This document shows, in pieces, positions 3,002 to 21,947 of a stretch of DNA of 22,418 nucleotides (its first letter is position 1; each line of letters starts with the position of its first letter). The stretch is taken from positions 1-22,418 of IMG/VR virus record IMGVR_UViG_3300007735_000489. One strand, written 5' to 3'. Below the pieces are notes generated by a model. It ran no database searches. It saw only the letters and a program-made list of their open reading frames with translations, and was not told the DNA's origin. Source of the stretch: a virus. A program made the translations under genes and the position numbers.

Positions 3002-4066
3002 TTAGGAGTTGTTCACCACACCTTCAAAGATGTAGTTGACACCGCGAAGCTGGTCGTTCAAGAAGAACACGTCAGAAGGCAATGTAACGAACTTGTAGGA
3101 GAGTCCCATAAAGAACTTCCATTGGTTACAATCCAACTGAGCATAGTAGTCAAACTCAAGCCCGGTTTCAGGGTCGGAGATTGTACCCTTCTTGATGGAC
3201 TCATCGTCAATGACACGGATACCAGAAGCACCACGGAAGGCATTGTAACGAATCATCTGCACACCGCCTGGGGCAAGGAATGCAAATCCGTTGGCATTAC
3301 CTTGGGCAGTACCGAGGCGAGGCTCAAAGAAGAAGTAAGACTGAGCGTCAGAGTTCATCATTTGCTGAAGGTCAACGTTAACCGTTGCGCAGCAATGAGA
3401 TTTCAACGCAGTCATATACTTCTGCACGAGTTCACCACCGAGGATGATGGGGCGATCCCAAGCCTCAGCGAGTTGGTATTGGTAAACCACATCGGACAAG
3501 AAGTCATCCAAGAAAACGCCTGTAGAGGTGTTTTTGGTCTTGGTGGTCAACAAGGTGCGAGCCACGTTAACGGTAGAACCTGGGTCGGAAGCGTACAAGC
3601 CATTGTTGGTGGCAATGAACGTAACGGCCTCTTGGTTGATGTACCGCTTAATGGCTTGCATATGCATAGCCAACTGCCGGGCGATGTAGGTCTCGTCATT
3701 TTCACAACGAGGGGCCAAATCGTCCAAGCCGATAGACCACCTGCGAGAAGCACCGGTGTTTGGGTCAATGTTGTAAACCCTTGAAGTTTCACCGTACTCT
3801 GGCCCCGCAGCACAGTTCAATGCCGCAGAAGTAGAGGTATTGGAATCAGTCATTCGTGGCTGATACACAACTTCCACCTGGCGGTAGTGACCGTTCTTGG
3901 TGTCAATTTGATTTTGAAGGATACCCGATTCGTTCATAGGGCTTGTGACCGCACGAAGGGTATTGATGTGTCCGGGGAACATCGTTGGATCGGCATTGAA
4001 GTAGCCTGCGTCCAACCGCTCCTGAATGTTCGGACACGATACGAAGGATGAAAAAGCGTATGACAT
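3002..4066 (-). CDS. Major capsid protein
   Basis: This 354-residue protein follows the scaffold gene and is followed by a strong terminator, the usual setting for a coat protein. The length suits an HK97-fold major capsid protein. The sequence is neutral, with many Asn, Ala, Gly and aromatic residues and a central helix-like stretch (ENDETYIARQLAMHMQAIKRYINQEAV, given here as residues about 122-149) where the spine helix would lie. There is no N-terminal delta domain, in agreement with a separate scaffold gene. The Cys-containing start (SFVSCPN) and SHCCATVN are notable. It begins at ATG 4066, preceded by an A-rich run (on the coding strand) instead of a Shine-Dalgarno site. Identity rests on context; I did not match a named capsid family. 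Confidence 0.85.
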   Translation of the reverse strand: MSYAFSSFVSCPNIQERLDAGYFNADPTMFPGHINTLRAVTSPMNESGILQNQIDTKNGHYRQVEVVYQPRMTDSNTSTSAALNCAAGPEYGETSRVYNIDPNTGASRRWSIGLDDLAPRCENDETYIARQLAMHMQAIKRYINQEAVTFIATNNGLYASDPGSTVNVARTLLTTKTKNTSTGVFLDDFLSDVVYQYQLAEAWDRPIILGGELVQKYMTALKSHCCATVNVDLQQMMNSDAQSYFFFEPRLGTAQGNANGFAFLAPGGVQMIRYNAFRGASGIRVIDDESIKKGTISDPETGLEFDYYAQLDCNQWKFFMGLSYKFVTLPSDVFFLNDQLRGVNYIFEGVVNNS

Positions 4067-5363: not shown

Positions 5364-6173
5364 TCAAACCTGCGGAACAAGCCAATGCCTACAACGATAA
5401 CCTCCCAAATAAATGAAAATCGTTGCCTCGTCCGTACCGGGAATCTTTCCCTTCCAATCGCCCAACCTTCCCCACGACCGTATCGCCCCCTCATCAAAAA
5501 CCTTGCCATCCCTCGCCACACAAAACGGTCTTGAATCGTTCACCAATCCACCTGCATACCTGAACTTCTTAATCCCCAAAGCCTTACCCAAAGCGTAGGT
5601 GAAGGAGCGGTCAATCACCGCAAACATCGTGTCAGCAGTCAAGACCGCCATATTGAACAAGCGACCCTTTTTGTCAGGGCCACCGCCTACCATTATCTCG
5701 GTAATACCTCCCTCCAAAAGCGACCGGGCCGAACCCGAAGCAATGGACGCAAGGATAAAGTTTCGTATATAAGCGTATAGATTCGTCTCAAGGTTGGTCA
5801 AATCGTCAAACATTGAAGCCATCTGCTCCTCATAACCGACCTCTGAAGCCAAACCAGGATCAAGGCCCAGCTTCTTGTAATACTCCTTGGTCAAGTCGGC
5901 TTGCTTGTCAATTCGGTTCGCTAAGAATACCAACGCATCGTAATAACTGCTCCGAGATACAGCGTCCTTAAATTCGGCCATCAGAGCCTCTACACGAGCG
6001 TAATTGTCGGTGGATGATACAAGGTTGCCCTCGGTGTCATACGAGAGCCTGGAGAGCAGTAAAAGCAGTATTGCAAGTAACTCCTCCTGCGACTTGTCCA
6101 CCTTCTTGCCGAAATCTTCGCCAATCGTGTCTAAGCCTTCCTGCTTGGAGGCCGCAATCTGCTCTAAAGTCAT
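5364..6173 (-). CDS. Minor head protein, SPP1 gp7 / Mu gpF-like
   Basis: This 269-residue protein is helical through residues 1-205 and has the family's C-terminal motif at 213-265: DSRPFCVARDGKVF, then IRSWG, KIPGT, and YLGGYRCRHWLVP. This Cys/His-containing end is typical of phage head morphogenesis proteins that associate with the portal and stay inside the capsid. It follows the portal in an ATGA overlap, the canonical order. The N-terminal 200 residues are poorly conserved in the family. Its role is probably in procapsid assembly or in protecting or delivering DNA at the portal vertex. Confidence 0.88.
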   Translation of the reverse strand: MTLEQIAASKQEGLDTIGEDFGKKVDKSQEELLAILLLLLSRLSYDTEGNLVSSTDNYARVEALMAEFKDAVSRSSYYDALVFLANRIDKQADLTKEYYKKLGLDPGLASEVGYEEQMASMFDDLTNLETNLYAYIRNFILASIASGSARSLLEGGITEIMVGGGPDKKGRLFNMAVLTADTMFAVIDRSFTYALGKALGIKKFRYAGGLVNDSRPFCVARDGKVFDEGAIRSWGRLGDWKGKIPGTDEATIFIYLGGYRCRHWLVPQV

Positions 6174-8038
6174 TGGTTAAGGTTAAGTGGTTTCTTCTTC
6201 CTCTTCTTCTTCCTCCTCTCCTCTTCCTCTTCAGCAGGGGCAGGAGCAGCAGCACGGGCGTTCATCACGCTCTGCGGAGTCATCGTCCTGGGAGCTTCCT
6301 CGGCAGGCACAAGAGTCTTTGCAAGGGCAGAAAGGGTTTCCCTTTGTTCTTCCAGGGTCAGCGTCAAGAAAGCCTCGTTTTGGTCAATGGCAGTACGAAT
6401 CAAAGACTCCAACTCAAAGTGAAGGATGGCCTTCCATTTGGGAACAAGACCCGTAGAAACCAACGCCAAGACATCTTTGGTGTCAAGGTTGAATAACGGG
6501 TCGGCCTGAACCGCCAACTTCATAATCGCTGATTTCTCCTCTTGAATGGGGAATCGGGTCTCCAAATACTGTTGCGCCAACATCGCCTTGCTGAAGGTCG
6601 GAGCCTTCTCAATTTCAGCGGTCAATTCAGCATCGGTACGCATCTCAAAGTTCTGCGGATACCTTACCGCAGGCATCGCAAAGCCTTCGCCATACCGCAT
6701 CACCCCGATGGTGCTGATAGCGAACTCAAAGTCGTGGAAGACCGTGTTGGCAAAGCGGAGCAGGAAGGAATACAACTCCTCCCTGTCAATGGCCTTCCCT
6801 GTGGCAGTCTCACGGCCCGAAATCTTCTCGTTGTTCATTACATCAATGGACAACAACTCAAAGGCCATCTGAATGTTGGTAATGACCTGCTTGTTCAAGA
6901 AGTCAAGGATTTGTGGATCCAAGTCAATGAACCCGGCAGGCGGGATGTTCACCTTCGTCTCTACCTCGGTGGTAAAGCGATTCGGGGTCTGCACTTGATA
7001 GACCGACATCGGCCCGAACATCCGTTTCGTTCCCGATCCACCGCAGTTTGAACAAGCAATCGCCACCTTCTCCTCAAAGCCCAAAGCCTCCTCAACCTGC
7101 CCGGAGCCATTGCACTTGTCGCACTCGTCCACATACTCCCACTTCTGCAAGAAAGCGTGGCTGTACTTGGACATCTGCAAGGTGCTGAAATCGCACACCG
7201 CTTGGTCTAACGCAGGGATGGCCGGGGTGTAGAAGGATTGGAAGTAGTAATCGCCTTGCTCCTGCACCGAAATACCGCCCAAACGAGTGCAGGGCAGTTT
7301 GTTCATATCGTGCTTGTAGTAAAGCTCAATCTCAAACTCGTAATCGGCCTTCTTGCCCACCTGCTTGGCTATCTGAATCTCGTTCTTGTCAAAGATGAAG
7401 AATACGAGACCATCGTCCGTCTTGGTACGGCCATTCTCCACCTCCGAGCCGTAATCAGCCTTAATGATGGCGTACTCGTTCTCCTTCCAGGCCCAAACAC
7501 GCTTGGAGTGAAAGCAATGGGCTACCGGGGTGGTTTCAACGGTATCGTTGAATGTGCCATCCTCAAAGTATTGCAGATTCGCAGGCATAATCGCCAAGAC
7601 CGCGTTGGGGTCGGTCAAGGTCATAAAGCTCACAATCTGCTGAAAGTAGTTCTCCAAAGAGCCAAAACGAGGGTAGTCCTCGGTGAAATACCGCTCTACG
7701 GACGCATCTTCAAACCGCATCTCGTAGTTCTGGCGGTTCCAAACACGCCCCGCAATGTTCACGGCCTTGTGGAAGTAAGGCACGGTGATAGGCTTGTAGA
7801 TGTTCTTTCGGTAGTTGAACTCGTGGGGAAGCTCGTTGGGAGCCTTCTCCTTGAACAACTTTTCGGGAAAGGCATCGTAATCGGAGTGAATCCGAAGCCT
7901 CATCTCCATTTCTACGCAAGCCTTGTAGGTTGGGTAGAAGTCAGGAATGTAGAATTTGTCGGACTTTTTCTTCACTTCGTACTTCTTGTACTCGGCAATG
8001 ATATGGTCTAACAAGGGCTTGACCTGTTCGGTTGTCAT
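6170..8038 (-). CDS. Portal protein with inserted DnaJ-like cysteine motif
   Basis: This 622-residue protein has the length and layout of phage portal proteins, which form the dodecameric DNA entry ring of the head. It sits directly before an SPP1 gp7-like minor head protein, the standard order. Aromatic-rich residues 75-150 and the helix at 370-450 (IDLDPQILDFLNKQVITNIQMAF, EKISGRETATGKAIDREEL, given here in parts) fit the portal core and stem. Residues 306-335 contain CDKCNGSG and CSNCGGSG, two CxxCxGxG units like the zinc-binding repeats of DnaJ, which is unusual in a portal. The C-terminus has a Glu run followed by an Arg/Lys-rich run (about 598-617). Its TGA overlaps the next ATG. Portal identity is inferred from length, pattern and position. 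Confidence 0.8.
   Translation of the reverse strand: MTTEQVKPLLDHIIAEYKKYEVKKKSDKFYIPDFYPTYKACVEMEMRLRIHSDYDAFPEKLFKEKAPNELPHEFNYRKNIYKPITVPYFHKAVNIAGRVWNRQNYEMRFEDASVERYFTEDYPRFGSLENYFQQIVSFMTLTDPNAVLAIMPANLQYFEDGTFNDTVETTPVAHCFHSKRVWAWKENEYAIIKADYGSEVENGRTKTDDGLVFFIFDKNEIQIAKQVGKKADYEFEIELYYKHDMNKLPCTRLGGISVQEQGDYYFQSFYTPAIPALDQAVCDFSTLQMSKYSHAFLQKWEYVDECDKCNGSGQVEEALGFEEKVAIACSNCGGSGTKRMFGPMSVYQVQTPNRFTTEVETKVNIPPAGFIDLDPQILDFLNKQVITNIQMAFELLSIDVMNNEKISGRETATGKAIDREELYSFLLRFANTVFHDFEFAISTIGVMRYGEGFAMPAVRYPQNFEMRTDAELTAEIEKAPTFSKAMLAQQYLETRFPIQEEKSAIMKLAVQADPLFNLDTKDVLALVSTGLVPKWKAILHFELESLIRTAIDQNEAFLTLTLEEQRETLSALAKTLVPAEEAPRTMTPQSVMNARAAAPAPAEEEEERRKKKRKKKPLNLNQ
6187..6243 (-). repeat. 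Purine-rich low-complexity tract at the portal C-terminus
   Basis: On the minus strand this stretch is almost all A and G, dominated by GAA, GAG, AGG and AAG triplets, and encodes a short run of Glu followed by Arg/Lys. It is within the portal reading frame. The complementary strand would encode a Ser/Pro run, which is an artefact. Confidence 0.6.
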
Positions 8039-8090: not shown

Positions 8091-8756
8091 TTACAAAGTT
8101 AAGCAATCACCACGACCAATTACTATTGACTTAGCCGCCTCAAGCAGCTTAATCTTGTTCTCAATGCCTTTAGTCCAATTTGCGTGATACATCAATACGT
8201 CTTTAGGAAGGCTTAAATTAGGATTCCCAACGCCATCCCAACCATTGCCGGTTTGACCTATGGTGTAATACCTTTCTGGAAGAAGAATGTGACCATAGTT
8301 CATCTCTGCAAGGGCCGCATTTAAGGATGGTTGGTCACAGTTAAAGCGAGTCCCCGTCATTGCGATGGTGCGACTTATCAATTCCAAAACCTTGTCCGTC
8401 TTTCTGCAAACGAAAAAGCCATTACAAGCCTGTCCACTCGGATGGTCTTTTTGAATGGCAAAATCCTTGTCACCCAAAAGGTTTGTTAAGTCGTGCCGTA
8501 TCGGGCCAAAGAACTCAATGTCAATATCGCAATGCAAGAATAGGTCATTGTAATTGAGAGCCTGCAACGCATCAAGAATGTTTATCATCCTCCTCTTCAT
8601 TGAGTCAGCCCATCCATCCTCAAAATACTCCCCGGTCTTGCAGTCCTGCGGAATACACCTTACTTCCAGGTTCATTCCATCTTCAAAAGGAAAAGAACCA
8701 AGAAAATAAGGGGCAAGCGATTTGTGACTTTCGGTTATGCAGGAAAAGACTTTCAT
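8091..8756 (-). CDS. GT77-like nucleotide-sugar glycosyltransferase
   Basis: This 221-residue protein begins MKVFSCITESH and has LFLHCDIDIEFFGPI at residues 72-86, with DID (77-79) as the DxD. FNCDQPSLNAALAE (138-151) and LMYHANWTKGIENKIKLL (188-205) follow, as in the nucleotide-diphospho-sugar transferase family of GT77-type enzymes, where the DQ-x-x-x-N segment and the late His complete the active site. It is the last gene of the cassette, starting at TAATG with the methyltransferase and ending just inside the next promoter core. It is cytoplasmic with no membrane segment. Donor and acceptor are unknown. Confidence 0.8.
   Translation of the reverse strand: MKVFSCITESHKSLAPYFLGSFPFEDGMNLEVRCIPQDCKTGEYFEDGWADSMKRRMINILDALQALNYNDLFLHCDIDIEFFGPIRHDLTNLLGDKDFAIQKDHPSGQACNGFFVCRKTDKVLELISRTIAMTGTRFNCDQPSLNAALAEMNYGHILLPERYYTIGQTGNGWDGVGNPNLSLPKDVLMYHANWTKGIENKIKLLEAAKSIVIGRGDCLTL
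8094..8101 (-). promoter_or_regulatory. Bacteroidota-type promoter core for the portal gene
   Basis: The minus strand reads TAACTTTG, a full TAnnTTTG match that overlaps the last codons of the GT77-like gene, with a TTG 15 bases upstream. It gives a leader of about 50 bases before the portal ATG at 8038. The stretch 8039-8090 holds no other gene or clear hairpin. Confidence 0.42.
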
Positions 8757-9382
8757 TAGGAGTTTGCTTTAATGCGTCTTATGATGGCTATGTTGTTGTC
8801 GTATTGGTTCTTGTCGCTCGGCATAGATACAATGTAGTACGCAAAAGATAGAGCCTCACTCATTTGGTCAAGGGATTGAACATACAGGCTCTTAGCGTAA
8901 TTGGTGATGTCCTCAATAACGTAAAGGCCATCGTCTTTCAATTTATGGATTGAGTTTCTCAAAAAAGTCATATTTGCGCTATGCTCATGTAGGCCATCGT
9001 CTATGATAATGTCAAACTGAACCTTATTGAGAGCCTTATTCTTCCACATTGCCTTGATTTTCTCATCGCTTTGTTGGTCGCAGTAGAAAGTCTTTATTCT
9101 TTCATCGTCTTGAAATAAGGACGATTCGTCAATGTCAGCACCATACAAGTTGGCAAAAGGGAAATACTTTGCCCAAGCCTTTAAGGAAGCACCGGGTATT
9201 CCATTTGCCCCCATATTACAAGGTATGTCCAAATTTGAAGTACCAATGCCTAACTCAAAGATATTCAGTTGTTTATCTCTAAGATGCCCAAACAACACCG
9301 AGTAGATTTCGGTGTAGTTATGCCAAGACCCACCCCTATCGCTCCCATTGGAGGTCATTAAATTACAGAGTTCAGTTTTCAT
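8756..9382 (-). CDS. SAM-dependent sugar O-methyltransferase (MycE/TylE-like)
   Basis: This protein has 208 residues from ATG 9382. I chose that start because it gives an 11-base overlap with the previous gene, whereas the longest frame starts 66 bases further upstream inside that gene. Residues 14-47 (SDRGG, HNYTEIY, then FELGIGTSN) and 67-85 (SLKAWAKYFP, LYGADID) follow the macrocin-type O-methyltransferase pattern. FDIIIDDGLHEH (123-134) provides the metal-binding aspartates and the catalytic histidine region, and LYVIEDI (153-159) closes the Rossmann core. Such enzymes methylate hydroxyls of deoxysugars using S-adenosylmethionine. In this cassette it probably caps a glycan. It joins the next gene at TAATG. 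Confidence 0.82.
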   Translation of the reverse strand: MKTELCNLMTSNGSDRGGSWHNYTEIYSVLFGHLRDKQLNIFELGIGTSNLDIPCNMGANGIPGASLKAWAKYFPFANLYGADIDESSLFQDDERIKTFYCDQQSDEKIKAMWKNKALNKVQFDIIIDDGLHEHSANMTFLRNSIHKLKDDGLYVIEDITNYAKSLYVQSLDQMSEALSFAYYIVSMPSDKNQYDNNIAIIRRIKANS

Positions 9383-10229
9383 TCTTAATGTGGCTTTTGA
9401 TTTTTGAATAAATGGTGTACTCCGAAGCATACTTGCGAACCCACGCATTCATCTGCTCAATAATGAGTTGTGGTGAAATAGATGCAATAATACCACCTAT
9501 CTCCTCCTTTGCCGTAATGGCTTTGGTGTAATACCTTAGATTCAACGCAAAGGGGATATGCTCAAGAACGTCGGGCGCACCCACATAAATCGGGATGGCC
9601 CGGCAGAGAATCGCGTCAATAATCTTGTCGGAGATGTAGCCCTGCCAAATGCCGTTCTCCATACACACCGAATAGCGGTACGGAATAAGGCCGTCAGCCT
9701 TGTTTTGCAACTCGCCCTTACCAAGACCAAGGCCACGCCCATAGACATCGGCATAGGCCGTCTGTGCAAGTTCACGGGCCAATTTAACGCGGTTCAAGTA
9801 GAATCCGTGGGAGATGCCACTCGTCACCATACTCAGCACCCGGCTCTTGCTGTCGGCAATGGAGTCCTTTAAGTAATCCGTGAGAGGCCCATCCATATGG
9901 TAGAACATCCCGCAGGGGAAGCCAACCAGGTTGCCCTTAATGCCGTAGGTGCTTGGGTGAGCGCAGGTGTAAACGGTGGAGCAGTACGATCCGATATTGC
10001 GGTCAAAGAAATCGTGGTCGGGTGGCTCTTGAATGAATCCGATAACCTTTTCCTTCGGTACGCGAGGCTCTGCGCCTTTCTTATCGTTGAACACCACAAG
10101 CCAATCGTAGGAATCGTCATCCACGAACCGAATGCCGTCCGATTCCTTCCAGAGTGACTGCTCCATAATCCTGCGGTTCAAGGAGGCAGAATCAGTCCAA
10201 TTACAAATCGCTCTTACCTTAATGCTCAT
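9372..10229 (-). CDS. Family 10-like (fucosyltransferase-type) glycosyltransferase
   Basis: This 285-residue protein carries the GT10 C-terminal signature: IPYRYSVCMENG (about 182-193), YISDKIIDAILCRAIPIYVG (198-217), then APDVLEHIP. In GT10 enzymes this region binds GDP-fucose. The N-terminal half (DWLVVFND, KVIGFIQEPP, VYTCAHPS) fits the acceptor-side domain. These enzymes are GT-B fold and metal-independent, which agrees with the lack of a DxD. GT10 enzymes can use other donors in bacteria, so fucose is likely but not certain. It begins one base after the previous stop and overlaps the methyltransferase by 11 bases. Confidence 0.85.
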   Translation of the reverse strand: MSIKVRAICNWTDSASLNRRIMEQSLWKESDGIRFVDDDSYDWLVVFNDKKGAEPRVPKEKVIGFIQEPPDHDFFDRNIGSYCSTVYTCAHPSTYGIKGNLVGFPCGMFYHMDGPLTDYLKDSIADSKSRVLSMVTSGISHGFYLNRVKLARELAQTAYADVYGRGLGLGKGELQNKADGLIPYRYSVCMENGIWQGYISDKIIDAILCRAIPIYVGAPDVLEHIPFALNLRYYTKAITAKEEIGGIIASISPQLIIEQMNAWVRKYASEYTIYSKIKSHIKNEN

Positions 10230-10230
10230 A

Positions 10231-10887
10231 TCAGAAGTTTTCAGGGATACAGCTCACAAAAGAACGCTGAATCAGTTTGTGGTTTCGCACATTGGTCTTA
10301 TACAGGTTCTTGTTGGCATAAAAACGAACCCTGTCCTCGTCATCGTGCTTAATGGTGCTGATACCGTTATGAAAGGCTTTTTGCTCAAATCCTTGAGCCT
10401 CAATGCGCCAATAGAAGTCCACATCGTCAAATCCCCAACCATCCACCACCTCGTTGTAACCGCGAACCCTGCTGAACAATTCCTTCCACACCATACAACA
10501 TCCCGTCCCATCTCCAAACCCCCAACCGGTCACAAACGAACCTCCTGCCATAACCTTCTGCCTGTGGTAGTTTACAAAGGATGGATTCGTCATCAAAGCG
10601 TCAGCGTCCATAAAAAGAAAGGTGTCTGCCTTCGGGGAAGATGCCAAGGCTCCCAAATTCCTTGCGTGGCTCAAATTAAAACCTTCCGCATCGTGCCTTA
10701 CGGCCCGAACCCGGTGGTCGCACAATTCCTCTACATAGTCTGCGCTCTTATCGGGATCCCCATAATCCACCACGATAATCTCATAGTTGTCACCGACCTG
10801 GCTCGTCCAAGTGGGCAATGCCTCCTCCAAGTGGTGCATACGGCCCTTGCAGGTGGTTATGATTGAGATAAATCCCTCTAATTCCAT
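10231..10887 (-). CDS. Family 2-like glycosyltransferase
   Basis: This 218-residue protein has the standard GT2 order: FISIITTCKGRMHHLEEAL at the N-terminus, YEIIVVDYGDPD around residue 35, NLSHARNLGA at about 71-80, LFMDADAL at 91-98 (DAD is the DxD motif), and GWGFDDVDFYWR at 150-161, like the GWG-E-D segment of galactosyltransferase-type GT2/GT7 enzymes. Length is usual for a compact GT-A domain, and no membrane anchor is present. It starts inside the preceding glycosyltransferase gene (10-base overlap) and stops one base before the next start, so it is translated as part of the cassette. The sugar and acceptor are unknown. Confidence 0.9.
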   Translation of the reverse strand: MELEGFISIITTCKGRMHHLEEALPTWTSQVGDNYEIIVVDYGDPDKSADYVEELCDHRVRAVRHDAEGFNLSHARNLGALASSPKADTFLFMDADALMTNPSFVNYHRQKVMAGGSFVTGWGFGDGTGCCMVWKELFSRVRGYNEVVDGWGFDDVDFYWRIEAQGFEQKAFHNGISTIKHDDEDRVRFYANKNLYKTNVRNHKLIQRSFVSCIPENF

Positions 10888-11828
10888 CGTATGAGCTGCT
10901 TTTGTTGCCCTGCGTGTTTTTGCCTAACAAGAGTATGCCATTTGTATTCGTGGGTCAATCCGAGATTAGCGTGGTATTGACCTAAAAGGTTGCAAGCCAT
11001 TTCCCAAGCCGAGTTATGCGTGAATCCTTCTCCTCCGTAAAGGCCAAGAATGTAATAATTTTCGTAAACCCATTTCACAATCTTACCCGTCATTGAATTG
11101 CGAAACTGAAAGTAAACGGGATTCAATCCACACCAAGGGTCAATGCGAAATTGAGCGCAGGCGATGTTGAACGCAAGTTCATCGGGGTAAGTGCCTCCCC
11201 ACGGCATCTTCAGCTTCGCTATCGGGATCCCGTTGTCAATGTTGTCTCTTACCTGCTCAAAGAACTCGGTGAGTTTCTTCCCCTTACGCAAGAACATAAA
11301 TGAGCTGTTTATAGCCGTGACCATTGCATCATCAGGCAGTTCGTGGTATTCCCAAATGGTGTCAAGCGTAGCCCATTGCATTTCTGGGAAGTCATGGCCA
11401 TTCTGCTTTAGGTTGGCCATTGGAGTTCTGCCTTCCGGGTCAGTCCAAGAAGCGGTTTGAGAAAAGAAGTGTTGGTCTTTTGGCAATGCCAACATCCTTT
11501 CAACCAAAGGCTTTAATGACTTGAGCGCAATGCCGTCAATGTCAAAGTAAAGGCTGTTGTCAAAGGCCATATACTTGTCAATTCGGGTCTTTGCTCTGCC
11601 AGGGCTGAATATCCTTCCATCAATGTAAAGGTCATCTCGGTCAATCAAGTCAATTTGGTTGAATACCCAATACTTGTGGCCTATCAGCACGTCCTTGCTG
11701 TCGCATATCAACTGAATCGGAATGTCATTGTCAAAGTGTTTGACCGATAGGGCGAAGTTGTACGCCATTTCGTGATAGGCCGCCTTTCCAAAAGCCATTA
11801 TCACTATGCCTGTTGTTTGTTCACTCAT
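10878..11828 (-). CDS. Glycosyltransferase, GT-A type, first gene of the cassette
   Basis: This 316-residue protein begins with a beta strand and hydrophobic core (TTGIVIMAFGKAAY) and has LYFDIDGIAL at residues 93-102, where DID (96-98) matches the DxD motif that binds metal and nucleotide sugar in GT-A glycosyltransferases. GGTYPDELAFNIA (about 225-237) resembles the acceptor-side segment of GT8-like enzymes. The C-terminus is basic with aromatic residues. There is no signal peptide or membrane segment, so it should act in the cytoplasm. It has its own promoter core and overlaps the next gene by 10 bases. The donor sugar and target cannot be read from sequence; the exact GT family is uncertain. 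Confidence 0.75.
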   Translation of the reverse strand: MSEQTTGIVIMAFGKAAYHEMAYNFALSVKHFDNDIPIQLICDSKDVLIGHKYWVFNQIDLIDRDDLYIDGRIFSPGRAKTRIDKYMAFDNSLYFDIDGIALKSLKPLVERMLALPKDQHFFSQTASWTDPEGRTPMANLKQNGHDFPEMQWATLDTIWEYHELPDDAMVTAINSSFMFLRKGKKLTEFFEQVRDNIDNGIPIAKLKMPWGGTYPDELAFNIACAQFRIDPWCGLNPVYFQFRNSMTGKIVKWVYENYYILGLYGGEGFTHNSAWEMACNLLGQYHANLGLTHEYKWHTLVRQKHAGQQKQLIRWN

Positions 11829-11833
11829 TTGTG

Positions 11834-11841
11834 CAAATATA
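11834..11841 (-). promoter_or_regulatory. Bacteroidota-type promoter core for the glycosylation cassette
   Basis: The minus strand reads TATATTTG, a full TAnnTTTG match, nine bases downstream of the preceding terminator's T tract. Only five bases (CACAA) separate it from ATG 11828, so a transcript from here would have almost no leader. No TTG -33 element is visible at normal spacing. Confidence 0.42.
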
Positions 11842-11850
11842 GGTCATTCC

Positions 11851-11900: not shown

Positions 11901-12479
11901 TTACGCCCCGAAGATAGCGTCTGCGTTTGAAGGCGCAGGGTACTTCTGAGGCAGTTGGTCTGGGCCAAGGGAAGCACGAGCGGTGCAGTTGAACATCTGA
12001 AGCTCCTTGTTGGAAGCAGGGACATTCACAGGCAGACAAACGTAGTTCACGGGAAGAGTAATTACCATAACCTCGTTGGAGCCGCAGAGATAGAGAATCA
12101 ACCCTGTCACGCGCTTGTTGAGGGCGCGGTAAAAGTCAATGGTTCCATCCGTAGTGTTGGCATCCATCCAGGTGGCAGTAAAATCAAACCCGGCCAAGAG
12201 GCTTGTTGGGCCACATCCAACGGGATTGTCCACATCTACGGGAGATGCGTCAGGCACAGTTCCACGAATGTTCTTGATAATCTTGAGGTCTCCTGCGGCA
12301 ATAGCAGTAGCGTATTTTGCGCCATTGCTAAAATCGGCAGCAGTCGCAAAAGTTGCACCTGTACCGAAAGCGTCTTCCTCAAGAATACCTATCGCAGAAA
12401 TGCCTCCCCGATTGTATGAGCCACAAGCTACGAGTTCGTGGTCTGGTAAAGCGGAACAGCCATATTCTAAATAAGCCAT
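11901..12479 (-). CDS. Probable major tail tube protein
   Basis: This 192-residue protein is the short form of the paralogous pair and lacks the DUF1566-like domain. Alternating hydrophobic and polar stretches suggest a beta-rich subunit, with conserved cysteines shared with its paralogue (C8, the C of DNPVGC, NYVC and FNC). It has its own promoter core, a leader of about 60-65 bases, and ends 20 bases before a strong terminator. The only other such terminator in the window follows the major capsid gene. That expression layout suits a protein needed in hundreds of copies, and no other gene in the window is a better tail tube candidate. I did not recognise a named tail tube family, so the function is inferred from context. 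Confidence 0.55.
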   Translation of the reverse strand: MAYLEYGCSALPDHELVACGSYNRGGISAIGILEEDAFGTGATFATAADFSNGAKYATAIAAGDLKIIKNIRGTVPDASPVDVDNPVGCGPTSLLAGFDFTATWMDANTTDGTIDFYRALNKRVTGLILYLCGSNEVMVITLPVNYVCLPVNVPASNKELQMFNCTARASLGPDQLPQKYPAPSNADAIFGA

Positions 12480-12559: not shown

Positions 12560-13663
12560 TTAATAGGATTGAGAGCGAATGGCTAAAGCGCGAAAAGTGG
12601 TAGTCTTAAAGGTGCTACTTGCTGTGCTTGATCCACCGACCAAGAACTGAACGCGAGTGCCGCTGGTTCCACTTGTGTCGTTAGATGACCAAAAGAATGT
12701 GGTCGTTGGAATGTTGGTTGTATTGATAAATGTGCCGATATTGTTTTGCCACACATTATTTGCAATATTCAAAAGAGCGTCCCTTGTTGGCAAAACCCAA
12801 TCGCTGAATGTAGCGTGAGTTAGCCCACTTGCCCAACTTGCCGCAGGTGTAGCAATAATTCCCGATATGCCCGCACTAATAATCGCAGATGTATTTGCCG
12901 CGCTAAAAGATGTTGCCGCAAATGTAGCCACATTTACTCCTGGTACAGAAAGATTAGATGCCGACCATTGATATGTAGCGCTCATTGGGTCAACATCTGC
13001 AACTACATAGGCAAGTCTGTTTGCCGCGTCAACCTCAAACACAATGCCCCCTCCAAATAAAGAACCAACAGCAGGAGCCGGTGCAAGAATCTCCTTATTG
13101 CACGAAGTGAAAATCACGCTCGCGTTAGATGGCGCAGGGTATTTTTGAGGCAAATCCGAAGGGCCAAACGATGTCCTTGCGGTGCAGTTAAACTGTTGTA
13201 ATTCCCTGTTGGAGGAAGGCACAACAATAGGATTGCAAACGAAATTGGTGGCACTCTCCACAATCATTACCTCATTGCTTTTTGGGATATAAATAATGAG
13301 GTTGGCAACCCTTTTGTTTAACGCTCTGTAAAAGTCAATGTTTGAATCGGTCGTGTTTGCGTCAATCCAAGTTATCGTCCAATCAAAGCCCCCAACGATA
13401 GTGTTAGAAAAGCATCCTACCGGGTTGTCAATCTCCGAAGGCGTAGCGTCAGGAACCGTGCCTCGGATGTTGTTTATTACTACCATACGCCCTGAGTTGT
13501 AGGCATTGGTGTAAGCGGATGCGCTTGACCAATCGGCAGGAGTCACAAAATCGCTTGAATCCAAAAGAATGGCTATGGATGGGATACCCCCTAAGCCATA
13601 ATTACCACAATTAACAAGCTCGTGATTGGGAAGCGGTGGGCAACCATATTCAATGTAGGCCAT
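12560..13663 (-). CDS. Tail tube paralogue with DUF1566-like (C-type-lectin-like) C-terminal domain
   Basis: Residues 1-185 closely match the 192-residue protein encoded next (shared blocks NIRGTVPDA, DNPVGC, DFYRALNKRV, FNCTAR, LPQKYPAPSNA). After a short Ala/Pro linker (193-200), residues 204-367 follow the DUF1566/Lcl C-terminal pattern: GGGIVFEVD (204), YQWSAS (231), SDWVLPTRDAL (287), FFWSSND (323) and FRALAIR (357). DUF1566 domains are related to C-type-lectin-like folds used in surface binding. The gene therefore looks like a virion shell or tube subunit carrying a surface-binding domain, perhaps a minor decorated form of its neighbour. It starts at ATG 13663, 31 bases after the preceding stop. 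Homology of the N-terminal halves is certain; tail tube identity is inferred. Confidence 0.72.
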   Translation of the reverse strand: MAYIEYGCPPLPNHELVNCGNYGLGGIPSIAILLDSSDFVTPADWSSASAYTNAYNSGRMVVINNIRGTVPDATPSEIDNPVGCFSNTIVGGFDWTITWIDANTTDSNIDFYRALNKRVANLIIYIPKSNEVMIVESATNFVCNPIVVPSSNRELQQFNCTARTSFGPSDLPQKYPAPSNASVIFTSCNKEILAPAPAVGSLFGGGIVFEVDAANRLAYVVADVDPMSATYQWSASNLSVPGVNVATFAATSFSAANTSAIISAGISGIIATPAASWASGLTHATFSDWVLPTRDALLNIANNVWQNNIGTFINTTNIPTTTFFWSSNDTSGTSGTRVQFLVGGSSTASSTFKTTTFRALAIRSQSY

Positions 13664-17914: not shown

Positions 17915-20859
17915 TTGAATCTCCTTCTGTTTATGACCTTATCGGTCGTGCTTCTGCGAGATATGGCTTTCGCAAACTCATCAACGTTCTTAATGGCAAC
18001 CCTTCGGTTTTGCTTGAGTAAAGTCGCAAGTTCCGCTGTCTGCATATCAAACGAATTGGACACATTCTCCGCAAAAGAGCTTCCAAGACCCGCATTACCG
18101 CTTTGCTTGCGCATCACATCGGTATATCGCTTCGCCACAAACGCCTCAAACTCGTTATCACGAATGGCCTGAAGTACGGGCTTGTATTTGGTCGTTTCCT
18201 CTGCGGTCATCACCGATTCGCCTCGTGAGAGTCTTGCAGGGATACTGTCAGAAGTTGCTGTGCCTGGGCCTTGCAAATCAATTACCCCTTCTTTGAATCC
18301 TGGGAATTGCTGAGATTGAATTGTAGCAATCTGAATGCCTGTTGCGGCAGTAATCGCTGCAACTTCCCACCACCTACCTTTCCCGATTGCTTTCATAACG
18401 CCTAACGCTCCATCTATAATAGCCGATACTGTGGCGGCTTTCTTTTCGTGTTCAAATCGCTTCTTTGCAAGTTCAGCCGCTTTTCTTTCGTATTCCTGTT
18501 CGCTTATTAGCTTTTGTTCAAGCTGTCGTTTAAGGGCGATTTCTTCGTTATCATAAGCCGTAGATTGCAATTTGGTTATTTCAGAATACACATTTCCAAC
18601 GCCACCAATTATTTCGGAGACTCTCTCTAATTCAATAGAATCGGTAGCCTTTTTTCCAGCAGCTTCAACTTCGCCAAGGGCTTTTGTGAGTTCACCGAGA
18701 ACCTCAATGTCTTGCGTTTTAGACATCGCATCTTTGATGTCCCTCGCCATCTTCTCAAACATCTGCTTGGTTCTTGCGATTCTTTTTTCATAAGAATCAC
18801 CCTCATTCCTCTCAATCAGATCATTGGCTTTTTGTATAATATCAACAATCTTGTCTTGCGACTTTTGCGCTTCTTGCTCTTCTTTGTCGTTTAAGTCAAT
18901 AATTGTACTTTTTAGTTTTTCATTAATTAATTCTATTTTCTTAGCCTTCAACTCTTCTGAGTCGGTGGATATTCTTACCTTAAATACTTCAAGCGCGGCA
19001 ACCTCTGTTGCTAAAATCTGTTCAGCATTTAATCTTTCTTTTGTTCCTTTTTTTGTGGCCTCTACTGTTTTTTGAGCTGTTGCAACAGCAAGCTCAAGCT
19101 CGTTCTCTCTAATCTTGCGAATTTCTTGGTCAAGTATTTTCATCGGCTCAAGACTGACCTCTGGCTCTACAATGACCTCTGGAGCGTTGGGGTCATAACC
19201 TCCAAGCATCCTATCAACCTCCTTTATCTTTTGGTCAAGTTTGAATCTTTCAAGAGCTGCCGCTTGTGGTGAATCTGCGAGTTTAAGGTCATTAAGTGCT
19301 TTTGTGGCTATATAAACTCTTTTGAGTTGCTCTTGGTATTTAACGCTATTTTGAGATAGCTTTTCAAGTTCAAGATTCTCTTTTGCCAAAACCTCCTCTC
19401 TTGCCTTGATAGCTTCTTTGGCATTACTATCTGCTTCGTCTCTTTTTTGAGACTCTTCGTTTTCCTTTTCAGCAAAGACCTGCATTTGCTCAATTAGCAT
19501 ACCGTATCCCCTAAGCCTTTGTCTTTGTCTTTTTGCTTCAGCCTCATCAGTTGCTGCTATTTCAGTCTTCGCGTCTATCTCTGATTTCAGAGCCTTCATT
19601 CTGTCCTGAACCTCTTGCTTGGTCATTTTCGCAAGCTCTTTTCTGTTCTTTATTCCCTCAGCGTATTCAAGAGAGCCTCTCTCAAAAGCCCTTTGGTTTA
19701 ATGCGGCAACATCTTTCTCGTCAGCCATTATGCCTTTCCACCAACGAGTAATGCTTTCCGTAAAAATCCCAGAGCCATACGCTACCTCGTTTACGATTTT
19801 GTAATAAGATTGCCAAAATCCTTCGGAGTTTTGAAGGATGGCATTAATGTTCGTGAGCCTTTCTTCAAGCCACTTGAATCCCGAAGAAATGCTTTGAAAA
19901 TTTGTTTGACCGATATTTAGCTTAAATCTCTCCCAAGCATTTGAAGCCCTCGTAAGGGTTGCATCCAAAGACCCCGCTTTTCCCGCAAGGGCAGGGGCAA
20001 ATTCTTCCTCCAAGACCCTTGAAAATTCAGGCAGGATTTCTCTTGATATAATCTTCCCGTTCTCAAGAAGTTTCGTAAAACCAAGGTTGGTGACTTGTTG
20101 GGCAGGGTGAAGGCGGTTGTATGCCTTAGTCATCAAGTCGGATGCGCCAGGCAAGGCTTCACCCAACTGCCTACGCAATTCTTCCGCAGCGACAACGCCC
20201 TTGGAAAGCATTTGTTGCAAGGCGTAAAAGGCTCGTTGCGTTTGAAGCGAACCCGCACCGGCTGCTCGTAGGGCCGTTGCAACACGAACAAAAATGTCCT
20301 CGGTTGTTTTGGCCGAAAAACCCGCCGCCCGTGACGCAATACCAAAGGAAACAAACCCTTCGCTCAACTCTTGGAATCCAATGCCAAGCTTTTGGGCTAC
20401 CTCAAACAATCGGTTAAATGCCGCCTCTCCGCTTGCTGCGTTTTGAAAAACGAAGTTGAGCCTGTTTTGCATCAACTCGGTTTTTCTGGTCACATCAACG
20501 ATAGAACTACCAAACTGAATTACTTGGTCAACGGCAAAAACAGCGGCCATTCTTGACGCAACTCTGGTTAGAAGCCCCTCAAACGCATAAACCTCTTTTT
20601 GGGTTTTACGCAAAGAGTCACCCAACCTGTTTACATTGTTGTTGGTGGTATTGACCGAGTTATTGTAGTTGTTTATGATAGTAGTGGACTGATTAAGTCC
20701 TCCATTTGTAGCATTAACGCTTGAGCCAAGGCCCGACATAGCCTTTTGGGCTGCATTGGCCGCATTGGAAAGTTGCTGATTCTTCGCAATCAGTTCATCA
20801 AGTTTCCTCTTAAGGTCATCTACATTTGCATCATAGACAATGGATATTCTATCGGACAT
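17911..20859 (-). CDS. Tail tape measure protein
   Basis: This 982-residue protein sets tail length and probably leaves the virion during DNA ejection. Residues about 1-90 form coiled coil and an Asn-rich linker. Residues about 95-260 match the N-terminal tape measure domain (TIGR02675 type), with the diagnostic EELRRQLGEALPGA around residues 226-239. Residues about 400-800 are long charged helices rich in Glu/Lys. A hydrophobic stretch at about 808-850 could be membrane active. From 855 the tail has FKEGVIDLQGPG and SDSIPARLSRGESVMT, typical of tape measure C-termini. At about 0.15 nm per residue the tail would be near 147 nm. It starts with ATG 11 bases before the chaperone extension ends, and its TGA overlaps the next ATG (ATGA). 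Confidence 0.95.
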   Translation of the reverse strand: MSDRISIVYDANVDDLKRKLDELIAKNQQLSNAANAAQKAMSGLGSSVNATNGGLNQSTTIINNYNNSVNTTNNNVNRLGDSLRKTQKEVYAFEGLLTRVASRMAAVFAVDQVIQFGSSIVDVTRKTELMQNRLNFVFQNAASGEAAFNRLFEVAQKLGIGFQELSEGFVSFGIASRAAGFSAKTTEDIFVRVATALRAAGAGSLQTQRAFYALQQMLSKGVVAAEELRRQLGEALPGASDLMTKAYNRLHPAQQVTNLGFTKLLENGKIISREILPEFSRVLEEEFAPALAGKAGSLDATLTRASNAWERFKLNIGQTNFQSISSGFKWLEERLTNINAILQNSEGFWQSYYKIVNEVAYGSGIFTESITRWWKGIMADEKDVAALNQRAFERGSLEYAEGIKNRKELAKMTKQEVQDRMKALKSEIDAKTEIAATDEAEAKRQRQRLRGYGMLIEQMQVFAEKENEESQKRDEADSNAKEAIKAREEVLAKENLELEKLSQNSVKYQEQLKRVYIATKALNDLKLADSPQAAALERFKLDQKIKEVDRMLGGYDPNAPEVIVEPEVSLEPMKILDQEIRKIRENELELAVATAQKTVEATKKGTKERLNAEQILATEVAALEVFKVRISTDSEELKAKKIELINEKLKSTIIDLNDKEEQEAQKSQDKIVDIIQKANDLIERNEGDSYEKRIARTKQMFEKMARDIKDAMSKTQDIEVLGELTKALGEVEAAGKKATDSIELERVSEIIGGVGNVYSEITKLQSTAYDNEEIALKRQLEQKLISEQEYERKAAELAKKRFEHEKKAATVSAIIDGALGVMKAIGKGRWWEVAAITAATGIQIATIQSQQFPGFKEGVIDLQGPGTATSDSIPARLSRGESVMTAEETTKYKPVLQAIRDNEFEAFVAKRYTDVMRKQSGNAGLGSSFAENVSNSFDMQTAELATLLKQNRRVAIKNVDEFAKAISRRSTTDKVINRRRFK

Positions 20860-21154
20860 CTTTGTTTTGTTTAGCCTTGCGTTGCCTTTCCTCCTGGAAG
20901 TGCTTGAGCAAAGTTAAGACATCCTCAACGGATGTTTTCATATACTCCTTGTACAGAAATATATCGCCATCCGCAAGGAAGACGAAGAACTCACGCCAAT
21001 TTAGGTCGCTGAAGTAGAGTTCCGAGCCGATAGCTCTGATTTCAGGAGTTCCTGGGTCGCTTCCAGCCGGGAGGACGCCATCTCCCAGAAGATTGTCCAA
21101 TCTTCTTCTAAATGTGCGATATTGGGAAAGTATTGACTCAGCCCGGCTAAAACG
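20849..21154 (-). CDS. -1 frameshift extension of tail assembly chaperone (lambda gpT-like)
   Basis: The open frame begins directly after a TGA at 21163-21161 that overlaps the slippery heptamer, and runs for 101 codons to TAG at 20851-20849. After slippage the next codon is CGT at 21154-21152. The segment reads as a plausible protein: a basic helix, a Gly/Pro-rich linker (LLGDG, SDPGTPE), then charged helices. It ends 11 bases inside the tape measure gene. A stand-alone start at TTG 21100 would give 83 residues, but the frame has no ATG near its beginning and is open exactly from the slip site, so a fusion product is more likely. In lambda the T domain of gpGT recruits the tape measure; the same role is inferred here. 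Confidence 0.68.
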   Translation of the reverse strand, partial: RFSRAESILSQYRTFRRRLDNLLGDGVLPAGSDPGTPEIRAIGSELYFSDLNWREFFVFLADGDIFLYKEYMKTSVEDVLTLLKHFQEERQRKAKQNKDVR

Positions 21155-21645
21155 AAAAAATCATACAACTCCTTGCCTTTGTATGCATTACGGAAAGCCT
21201 CCACCTTCTTCTGCTCAAACTCGGCATTCCACTCACCTGGATTCTGGTCTTCACGAATCAAGACCGCCCCGGCTAACTCCATCATCACATCGGGGTGAAT
21301 CAGCATTTCCTTCCTTTTGCGCATCTCTCCGACCAAAAAGCCAATTTGCGCCAGGTTTTTGACCGCTGCGCCCGAAACTGATGCGTTCAGCGCGTTCTCC
21401 ATATTCTCCAAGAATACGTCCAACTCCTCCTTGCTCACCATCCGCTGCAACTGAATCACGAGGTCTTGGATCCGACCCATCCGCTCAATGGGGATGTCAA
21501 AGATGTTCTGGTAGATGTAATACTTATGGCCCTCGCAGACCAAGGCGAATTTCAGCCCCTTCATCATGTCGGGCTTGTAGGTTTCGTCCCATACCATTTG
21601 GGTTAACTCCTTTTTGAAGAGTTTGTAAACAATTTTGTGTATCAC
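21001..21645 (-). CDS. Tail assembly chaperone, unshifted product (lambda gpG-like)
   Basis: This 214-residue, mostly alpha-helical protein lies just upstream of the tape measure gene, the usual place for lambda G/GT-type tail assembly chaperones, which keep the tape measure soluble and guide tail tube assembly. The start is GTG at 21645, in a GTGA overlap with the membrane protein gene. Codons 163-164 form a T TTT TTC slippery heptamer at 21160-21154. From there the -1 frame is open to 20849, so a fraction of ribosomes should make a 265-residue fusion. Sequence similarity to gpG is not obvious by eye. The call rests on position, the overlapping open frame and the heptamer. Confidence 0.7.
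   Translation of the reverse strand: MIHKIVYKLFKKELTQMVWDETYKPDMMKGLKFALVCEGHKYYIYQNIFDIPIERMGRIQDLVIQLQRMVSKEELDVFLENMENALNASVSGAAVKNLAQIGFLVGEMRKRKEMLIHPDVMMELAGAVLIREDQNPGEWNAEFEQKKVEAFRNAYKGKELYDFFVLAGLSQYFPNIAHLEEDWTIFWEMASSRLEATQELLKSELSARNSTSAT
21087..21106 (-). other. Perfect inverted repeat in the chaperone frame overlap
   Basis: On the minus strand AGAAGATTG, two bases (GA), then CAATCTTCT form a perfect nine-pair inverted repeat; as RNA this is about eight pairs closed by a GGAC tetraloop. It lies 47 bases downstream of the slippery heptamer, inside the region read in both frames. The usual spacing for a frameshift stimulator is about 5-9 bases, so a direct stimulatory role is doubtful. 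It has no U tract and is not a terminator. Confidence 0.45.
21154..21160 (-). promoter_or_regulatory. Programmed -1 ribosomal frameshift slippery heptamer T TTT TTC
   Basis: On the minus strand the codons GAT TTT TTC of the chaperone gene contain T TTT TTC in the zero frame, a canonical X XXY YYZ heptamer on which P-site and A-site tRNAs can both re-pair after a -1 slip. The -1 frame carries a stop (TGA 21163-21161) just before the site and is open for 101 codons after it, which is the expected arrangement for programmed frameshifting. The site lies in the gene immediately upstream of a tape measure gene. Confidence 0.7.
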
Positions 21646-21947
21646 GATAGTTTAATAAAGATGAAATTGAGTGCTACGCCCATAATCATCACCACGGCCA
21701 TTTCAAGGGGATAGAAGCCGAACAGGGGGGATGTTAAGAGGTAGAAGATGCCTCCCCAAAACGAAGCCATACACCCCACGCAACCGTACACCGGTTTGTG
21801 GAGCATCGGATACTTGTTCGGGGGGAGAAGGTATCGCAGTCGCTTTTGCAGGCCGTGCAGGAGTTGCTCGTCCTCCATAGAGATGGAGAGCGACACGACC
21901 ATTAGGCTTACAATCAAGGCTCGGTAGAAGGTTTCAATGGTGTACAT
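21642..21947 (-). CDS. Small integral membrane protein with C-x-x-C motif
   Basis: This 101-residue protein has a weakly hydrophobic N-terminal helix (about residues 8-24), a charged middle (25-50), and two strong membrane segments (about 53-76 and 80-100). The second segment opens with YGCVGCMASFWGG, a CxxC at C56 and C59. Small membrane proteins with a Cys-x-x-Cys-x-S-x-W pattern occur in phages and bacteria (compare DUF1360), but their function is not known to me. It starts at a TAATG junction with the preceding gene and ends at a GTGA junction with the chaperone gene, so it sits inside the tail operon. A role at the host inner membrane (superinfection exclusion, lysis or DNA entry) is conceivable but is not shown by the sequence. 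Confidence 0.7.
   Translation of the reverse strand: MYTIETFYRALIVSLMVVSLSISMEDEQLLHGLQKRLRYLLPPNKYPMLHKPVYGCVGCMASFWGGIFYLLTSPLFGFYPLEMAVVMIMGVALNFIFIKLS

Follow-up and report, generated by a model that had tools for sequence, protein, structure and literature searches.

A very likely programmed -1 ribosomal frameshift upstream of the tape measure gene of an uncultured phage, with a conserved slippery heptamer and a covarying downstream stem

We analyzed positions 1 to 22,418 of the record IMGVR_UViG_3300007735_000489, which derives from an uncultured phage and is called the window in the following, and we describe on its minus strand what is very likely a programmed -1 ribosomal frameshift cassette producing G-like and GT-like tail assembly chaperones, as judged from comparison of sequences. 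Frameshifting is strongly supported, as the slippery heptamer and the -1 frame are conserved, synonymous change is suppressed and a stem located 5 nt downstream of the heptamer covaries, and the programmed -1 frameshift suggested in an earlier note on this DNA is strengthened by these data. The frameshift mechanism itself is familiar; what is new is that it involves a protein family without annotated homologues, that the phage probably infects Bacteroidota and that a stem downstream of the site covaries.

The zero-frame gene (21645-21001, minus strand, as all features of the cassette) starts with a GTG codon, which overlaps the stop codon of the preceding gene (21642-21947), and encodes a G-like protein of 214 aa that is conserved over its full length in relatives at 56-98% identity. 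This reading frame contains the heptamer TTTTTTC at 21160-21154 in the phase T|TTT|TTC, i.e., in the zero frame, 50 codons before the zero-frame stop. In the -1 frame, a TGA at 21163-21161 is followed by 103 open codons counting both Phe codons; the extension encoding the T-like domain (21160-20849) comprises 101 codons past the heptamer and terminates with a TAG at 20851-20849, 9 nt inside the next gene. Between 21153 and 21001 the final 50 zero-frame codons and the zero-frame stop are also part of the -1 frame. Two frameshift-linked products are thus predicted, the 214-aa protein and a fusion of 265 aa, which is composed of the first 164 residues common to both products and 101 residues of the -1 frame. 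The gene directly following is the tape measure protein gene (20859-17911; Pfam TMP_3 7e-26, PHROG tape measure 1e-46). Recomputing coordinates, phase, the length and end of the -1 frame and both product lengths reproduced the values of the earlier note, and the gene order given there holds as well. Its TGA directly before the heptamer is present in the window but is not a conserved feature, as the -1 frame of relatives is open for 0-20 codons upstream of the site.

Heptamers of the type XXXYYYZ in the zero frame are by themselves common in the window, with 37 found in 7196 codons. The site at 21160-21154 has the longest open -1 run among the 37 (103 codons, followed by 78 and 63), and it is the only one of them within the gene preceding the tape measure gene. 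The case that it stands above chance comes from comparative evidence. Relatives were collected from scans of viral contigs and range in identity from 98% down to about 56%. The exact sequence TTTTTTC is present in 179 of 179 related loci in which the site is readable; these loci include overlapping segments of the same contigs and correspond to 61 distinct sequences, which at 90% nucleotide identity fall into about 10 clusters. In every full-length relative with the exception of L050 the -1 frame spans 96-121 codons, and in all intact relatives it is kept at approximately 100 codons, about 50 of which lie beyond the zero-frame stop. In L050, in which the heptamer is found at about position 3542, an apparent 1-nt deletion shortly past the site breaks both frames; this is likely, if not proven, to be a sequencing error. 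Loss of the heptamer or stop codons in the -1 frame of relatives had been named beforehand as observations that would refute frameshifting; since the relatives keep both the heptamer and, save L050, the open frame, the proposal withstands this comparison.

Both frames of the overlap also show signs of constraint. Synonymous differences were counted at degenerate codons with conserved amino acids in four independent lineage pairs. Upstream of the heptamer, 207 of 506 such zero-frame codons differ, compared with none of 12 at the three heptamer codons (Asp-Phe-Phe), 8 of 70 in the first 20 codons past it and 18 of 51 in the next 19 codons. Even when the heptamer codons are left out, the overlap differs from the upstream region (26/121 vs. 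207/506; Fisher p = 6e-5), and when pairs of 9 lineages are considered, the Asp-Phe-Phe codons show 0/108 synonymous differences with an upstream fraction of about 0.5. Moreover, substitutions within the overlap are shifted toward position 2 of zero-frame codons, corresponding to position 3 in the -1 frame, and beyond the zero-frame stop they fall mainly on third positions of -1 codons, as in coding sequence. The suppressed synonymous change together with this substitution pattern shows that both frames are under selection and that the switch point coincides with the heptamer. The suppression just past the heptamer may partly be due to an RNA stem rather than to the second frame.

This stem, a candidate stimulator that is absent from the earlier note, starts 5 nt past the heptamer (spacer 21153-21149). 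RNAalifold applied to 14 relatives yielded seven base pairs between a 5' arm AGCCGGG (21148-21142) and a 3' arm CCCGGCT (21071-21065), and both arms carry compensatory changes: AGCCGGG/CCCGGCT is found in the window and L201 types, AGGCGGA/TCCGCCT in the L176 type and AGGCGGG/CCCGCCT in other relatives. The stem is kept in all intact distinct sequences, with the outermost pair being lost in the type represented by L057 and L058; the spacer is 6 nt in the L057 type and otherwise has the canonical length of 5 nt, both values being inside the range of 5-9 nt for stimulatory structures. Across 29 distinct sequences 98% of the stem cells are paired, while slid partners pair at 57% or less. The covariation score of the stem was reached in none of 500 column shuffles and drops when the partners are slid. 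As the column-shuffle control ignores relatedness, two further checks were performed. Of the 74,500 helices of 6 bp that are possible in the gene, no other combines two doubly changed columns with pairing of 97% or more. Furthermore, a tree calculated with FastTree from the region upstream of the heptamer, i.e., outside of the stem, places about three double substitutions at stem pairs, two at one pair and one at another. The covariation comes from only two of the seven pairs, and four of the seven are invariant. The entire predicted stimulatory hairpin region (21153-21060) has a minimum free energy of -34.4 kcal/mol (z -3.6), and in all eight representatives the folding energy of the 94-nt segment lies between -31 and -38 kcal/mol (z -3.5 to -4.4), with no shuffled sequence being equally stable. 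The inner hairpin helices are short, invariant and without covariation and the inner fold varies among lineages, and we therefore claim the outer stem only.

The open -1 frame could also be a separate overlapping gene with an internal start, e.g., the TTG at 21100 that is present in the -1 frame of the window and of several relatives, in which case the heptamer would be incidental. We regard this as very improbable. The L105 and L055 lineages have CTG in place of the TTG at 21100, and beyond this position in L066 the -1 frame lacks ATG, GTG and TTG up to codon 83; none of these start codons is conserved in the -1 frame among the relatives, which argues against internal initiation. An internal start also leaves the invariant heptamer, the suppression of synonymous change from the heptamer on and the stem at a 5-nt spacing unexplained. 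Slippage of RNA polymerase on the T run, a transcriptional instead of a ribosomal event, would likewise give a fused frame, and we see hardly any room for it here. Polymerase slippage usually needs runs longer than six T, and the run at the switch point has just six T, with no longer run in any of the 179 loci. The presence of such a run exactly at the switch point fits this mechanism, which is known elsewhere, as reported for tssM of Citrobacter (PMC4256274), but under it neither the zero-frame phase nor the terminal C nor a stem 5 nt downstream would be needed.

A further alternative accepts the frameshift cassette and concerns its products, which could serve another virion or assembly function than tail assembly chaperones; it would be favored by the finding that no homology to any chaperone family was detected. 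Neither half gave a significant match in PHROGs, Pfam, PDB sequences or phage records, and hhalign of both proteins against lambda G and T revealed no detectable homology. A scan of bacterial genomes for the G family found no prophage, and the AlphaFold models of the two halves, with pLDDT values of 48 and 54, are too poor for use. Gene 25, located before the tape measure gene of Polaribacter phage P12002L, the nearest named phage, was considered as a frameshifting homologue and rejected, as it has no such heptamer site. Known tail chaperones are highly divergent, so that a missing sequence match is weak evidence, and with no detectable homology the chaperone assignment draws on position and architecture. 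Arguments against another function are that the locus directly precedes the tape measure gene, that its architecture is of the G/GT type, the two products having a common N-terminus, and that phage SPP1 offers a precedent (PMC6316719); we consider such a function unlikely. From position and architecture we infer, on sound grounds, that the two products are tail assembly chaperones of the G/GT type; the tail chaperone proposed earlier fits the position and layout of the locus, although homology to known chaperones was not found.

Frameshifting in tail assembly chaperone genes is a classical and widely conserved phenomenon (PMC5009743). As in lambda G/GT, the -1 slip would take place close to the end of the gene that precedes the tape measure gene and would yield two products with a common N-terminus. 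The locus differs from lambda in the heptamer, which in lambda is GGGAAAG and precedes the G stop by 6 codons, compared with 50 codons in the window phage, and in the length of the T domain (144 aa in lambda as annotated, 101 in the window phage). Another T-run heptamer, T TTT TTG, is used for the -1 slip of E/E+E' of phage P2, where the tail assembly gene concerned also precedes the tape measure gene; P2 differs in being a myovirus and in the last base of the heptamer. A close likeness by published description is to SPP1 gp17.5/gp17.5*, whose gene directly precedes the tape measure gene and was described as having a putative -1 frameshift site, UUUUUUC, with two chaperone products having 112 of 173 residues in common and a fusion of 297 aa (PMC6316719). 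Heptamer, location before the tape measure gene and a shift far before the zero-frame stop are the same, and the 112 shared residues of 173 compare with 164 of 214 in the window phage. In contrast, the host of SPP1 belongs to the Firmicutes, which use Shine-Dalgarno pairing, and the SPP1 fusion is longer than the 265 aa of the window phage. The lambda layout seen originally thus stands with regard to the G/GT-type architecture, but the distance from heptamer to stop matches SPP1 instead. The heptamer does differ from that of lambda, as had been pointed out, but it is no novelty because SPP1 17.5/17.5* has the same heptamer and a long overlap (PMC6316719).

In the proposed mechanism, tRNA-Phe would fill both the P and the A site at U UUU UUC of the G-like gene while ribosomes pause at the RNA hairpin of about 90 nt starting 5 nt downstream. 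Both tRNAs would slip back by one base, from UUU UUC to UUU UUU, in a minority of these passages. Unshifted ribosomes would complete the 214-aa G-like protein, and shifted ribosomes would produce the 265-aa fusion of the first 164 residues and the 101-residue T-like domain. The shared part may coat the tape measure protein and the T-like part may recruit tail tube subunits, with the slip rate setting the ratio of the two chaperone products.

A strong Shine-Dalgarno match is found in one of 22 genes of the window and a weaker one in two or three, and the best named matches are to the Polaribacter phages P12002L/S, for the tape measure protein (best by E-value, 1e-20) and the portal protein (8e-6). 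Because Shine-Dalgarno sequences are nearly absent and the best matches of tape measure and portal are in Polaribacter phages, the host likely belongs to the Bacteroidota, which agrees with the phage having been called Bacteroidota-type before. An upstream Shine-Dalgarno-like element, an optional feature of frameshift sites, was considered as a stimulator and rejected: AAGGAG upstream of the heptamer is restricted to the clade of the window, and AAGGCG, GGTCAG, GGCCAG or AAGGGG are found elsewhere. This is expected since the phage makes little use of Shine-Dalgarno pairing.

On balance we lean toward the reading that uncultured, probably Bacteroidota-infecting phages set their chaperone ratio by an RNA of about 90 nt with a triple purpose, encoding two frames and forming a covarying hairpin that acts as the sole stimulator without help from a Shine-Dalgarno element upstream, the ribosomes of their hosts relying little on Shine-Dalgarno pairing. 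If true, -1 frameshifting driven by RNA structure would have a defined example in Bacteroidota, and the segment would be a compact frameshift signal for hosts with little Shine-Dalgarno pairing. An incomplete literature search found no described tail-chaperone frameshift in Bacteroidota phages, which is weak evidence of novelty. The locus would extend tail-chaperone frameshifting to an uncultured phage family, with the covarying stem and the dual-frame constraint as comparative evidence, and a function is proposed for two proteins otherwise lacking annotation.

Several other genes of the minus strand deserve mention. The gene directly before the chaperone gene (21642-21947) encodes a 101-aa protein that looks membrane-associated, with hydrophobic stretches and a CVGCM motif, and that has no family match. 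Adjacent genes at 12560-13663 and 11901-12479 encode paralogous proteins with the motif MAY[IL]EYGC.PLP.HELV.CG, the longer of which (12560-13663) carries a C-terminal extension weakly resembling Lcl_C (E 8e-4, below the cut-off); they are possibly major tail proteins or tail decorations, located downstream of the tape measure gene rather than before the chaperone gene. The gene at 6170-8038 likely encodes the portal protein, as it matches the portal of a Polaribacter phage, and residues 302-341 of its product form a CxxC zinc-finger-like segment resembling the central domain of DnaJ (E 1e-4, below the cut-off). A run of sugar-modifying genes at 8091-11828 lies within the structural module and includes glycosyltransferases of families 2 and 10, a nucleotide-sugar transferase and a gene weakly matching a methyltransferase. 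The gene at 11828 is closely preceded by TATATTTGC (11829-11848, minus strand), which resembles the Bacteroidota -7 promoter motif, TAnnTTTG.
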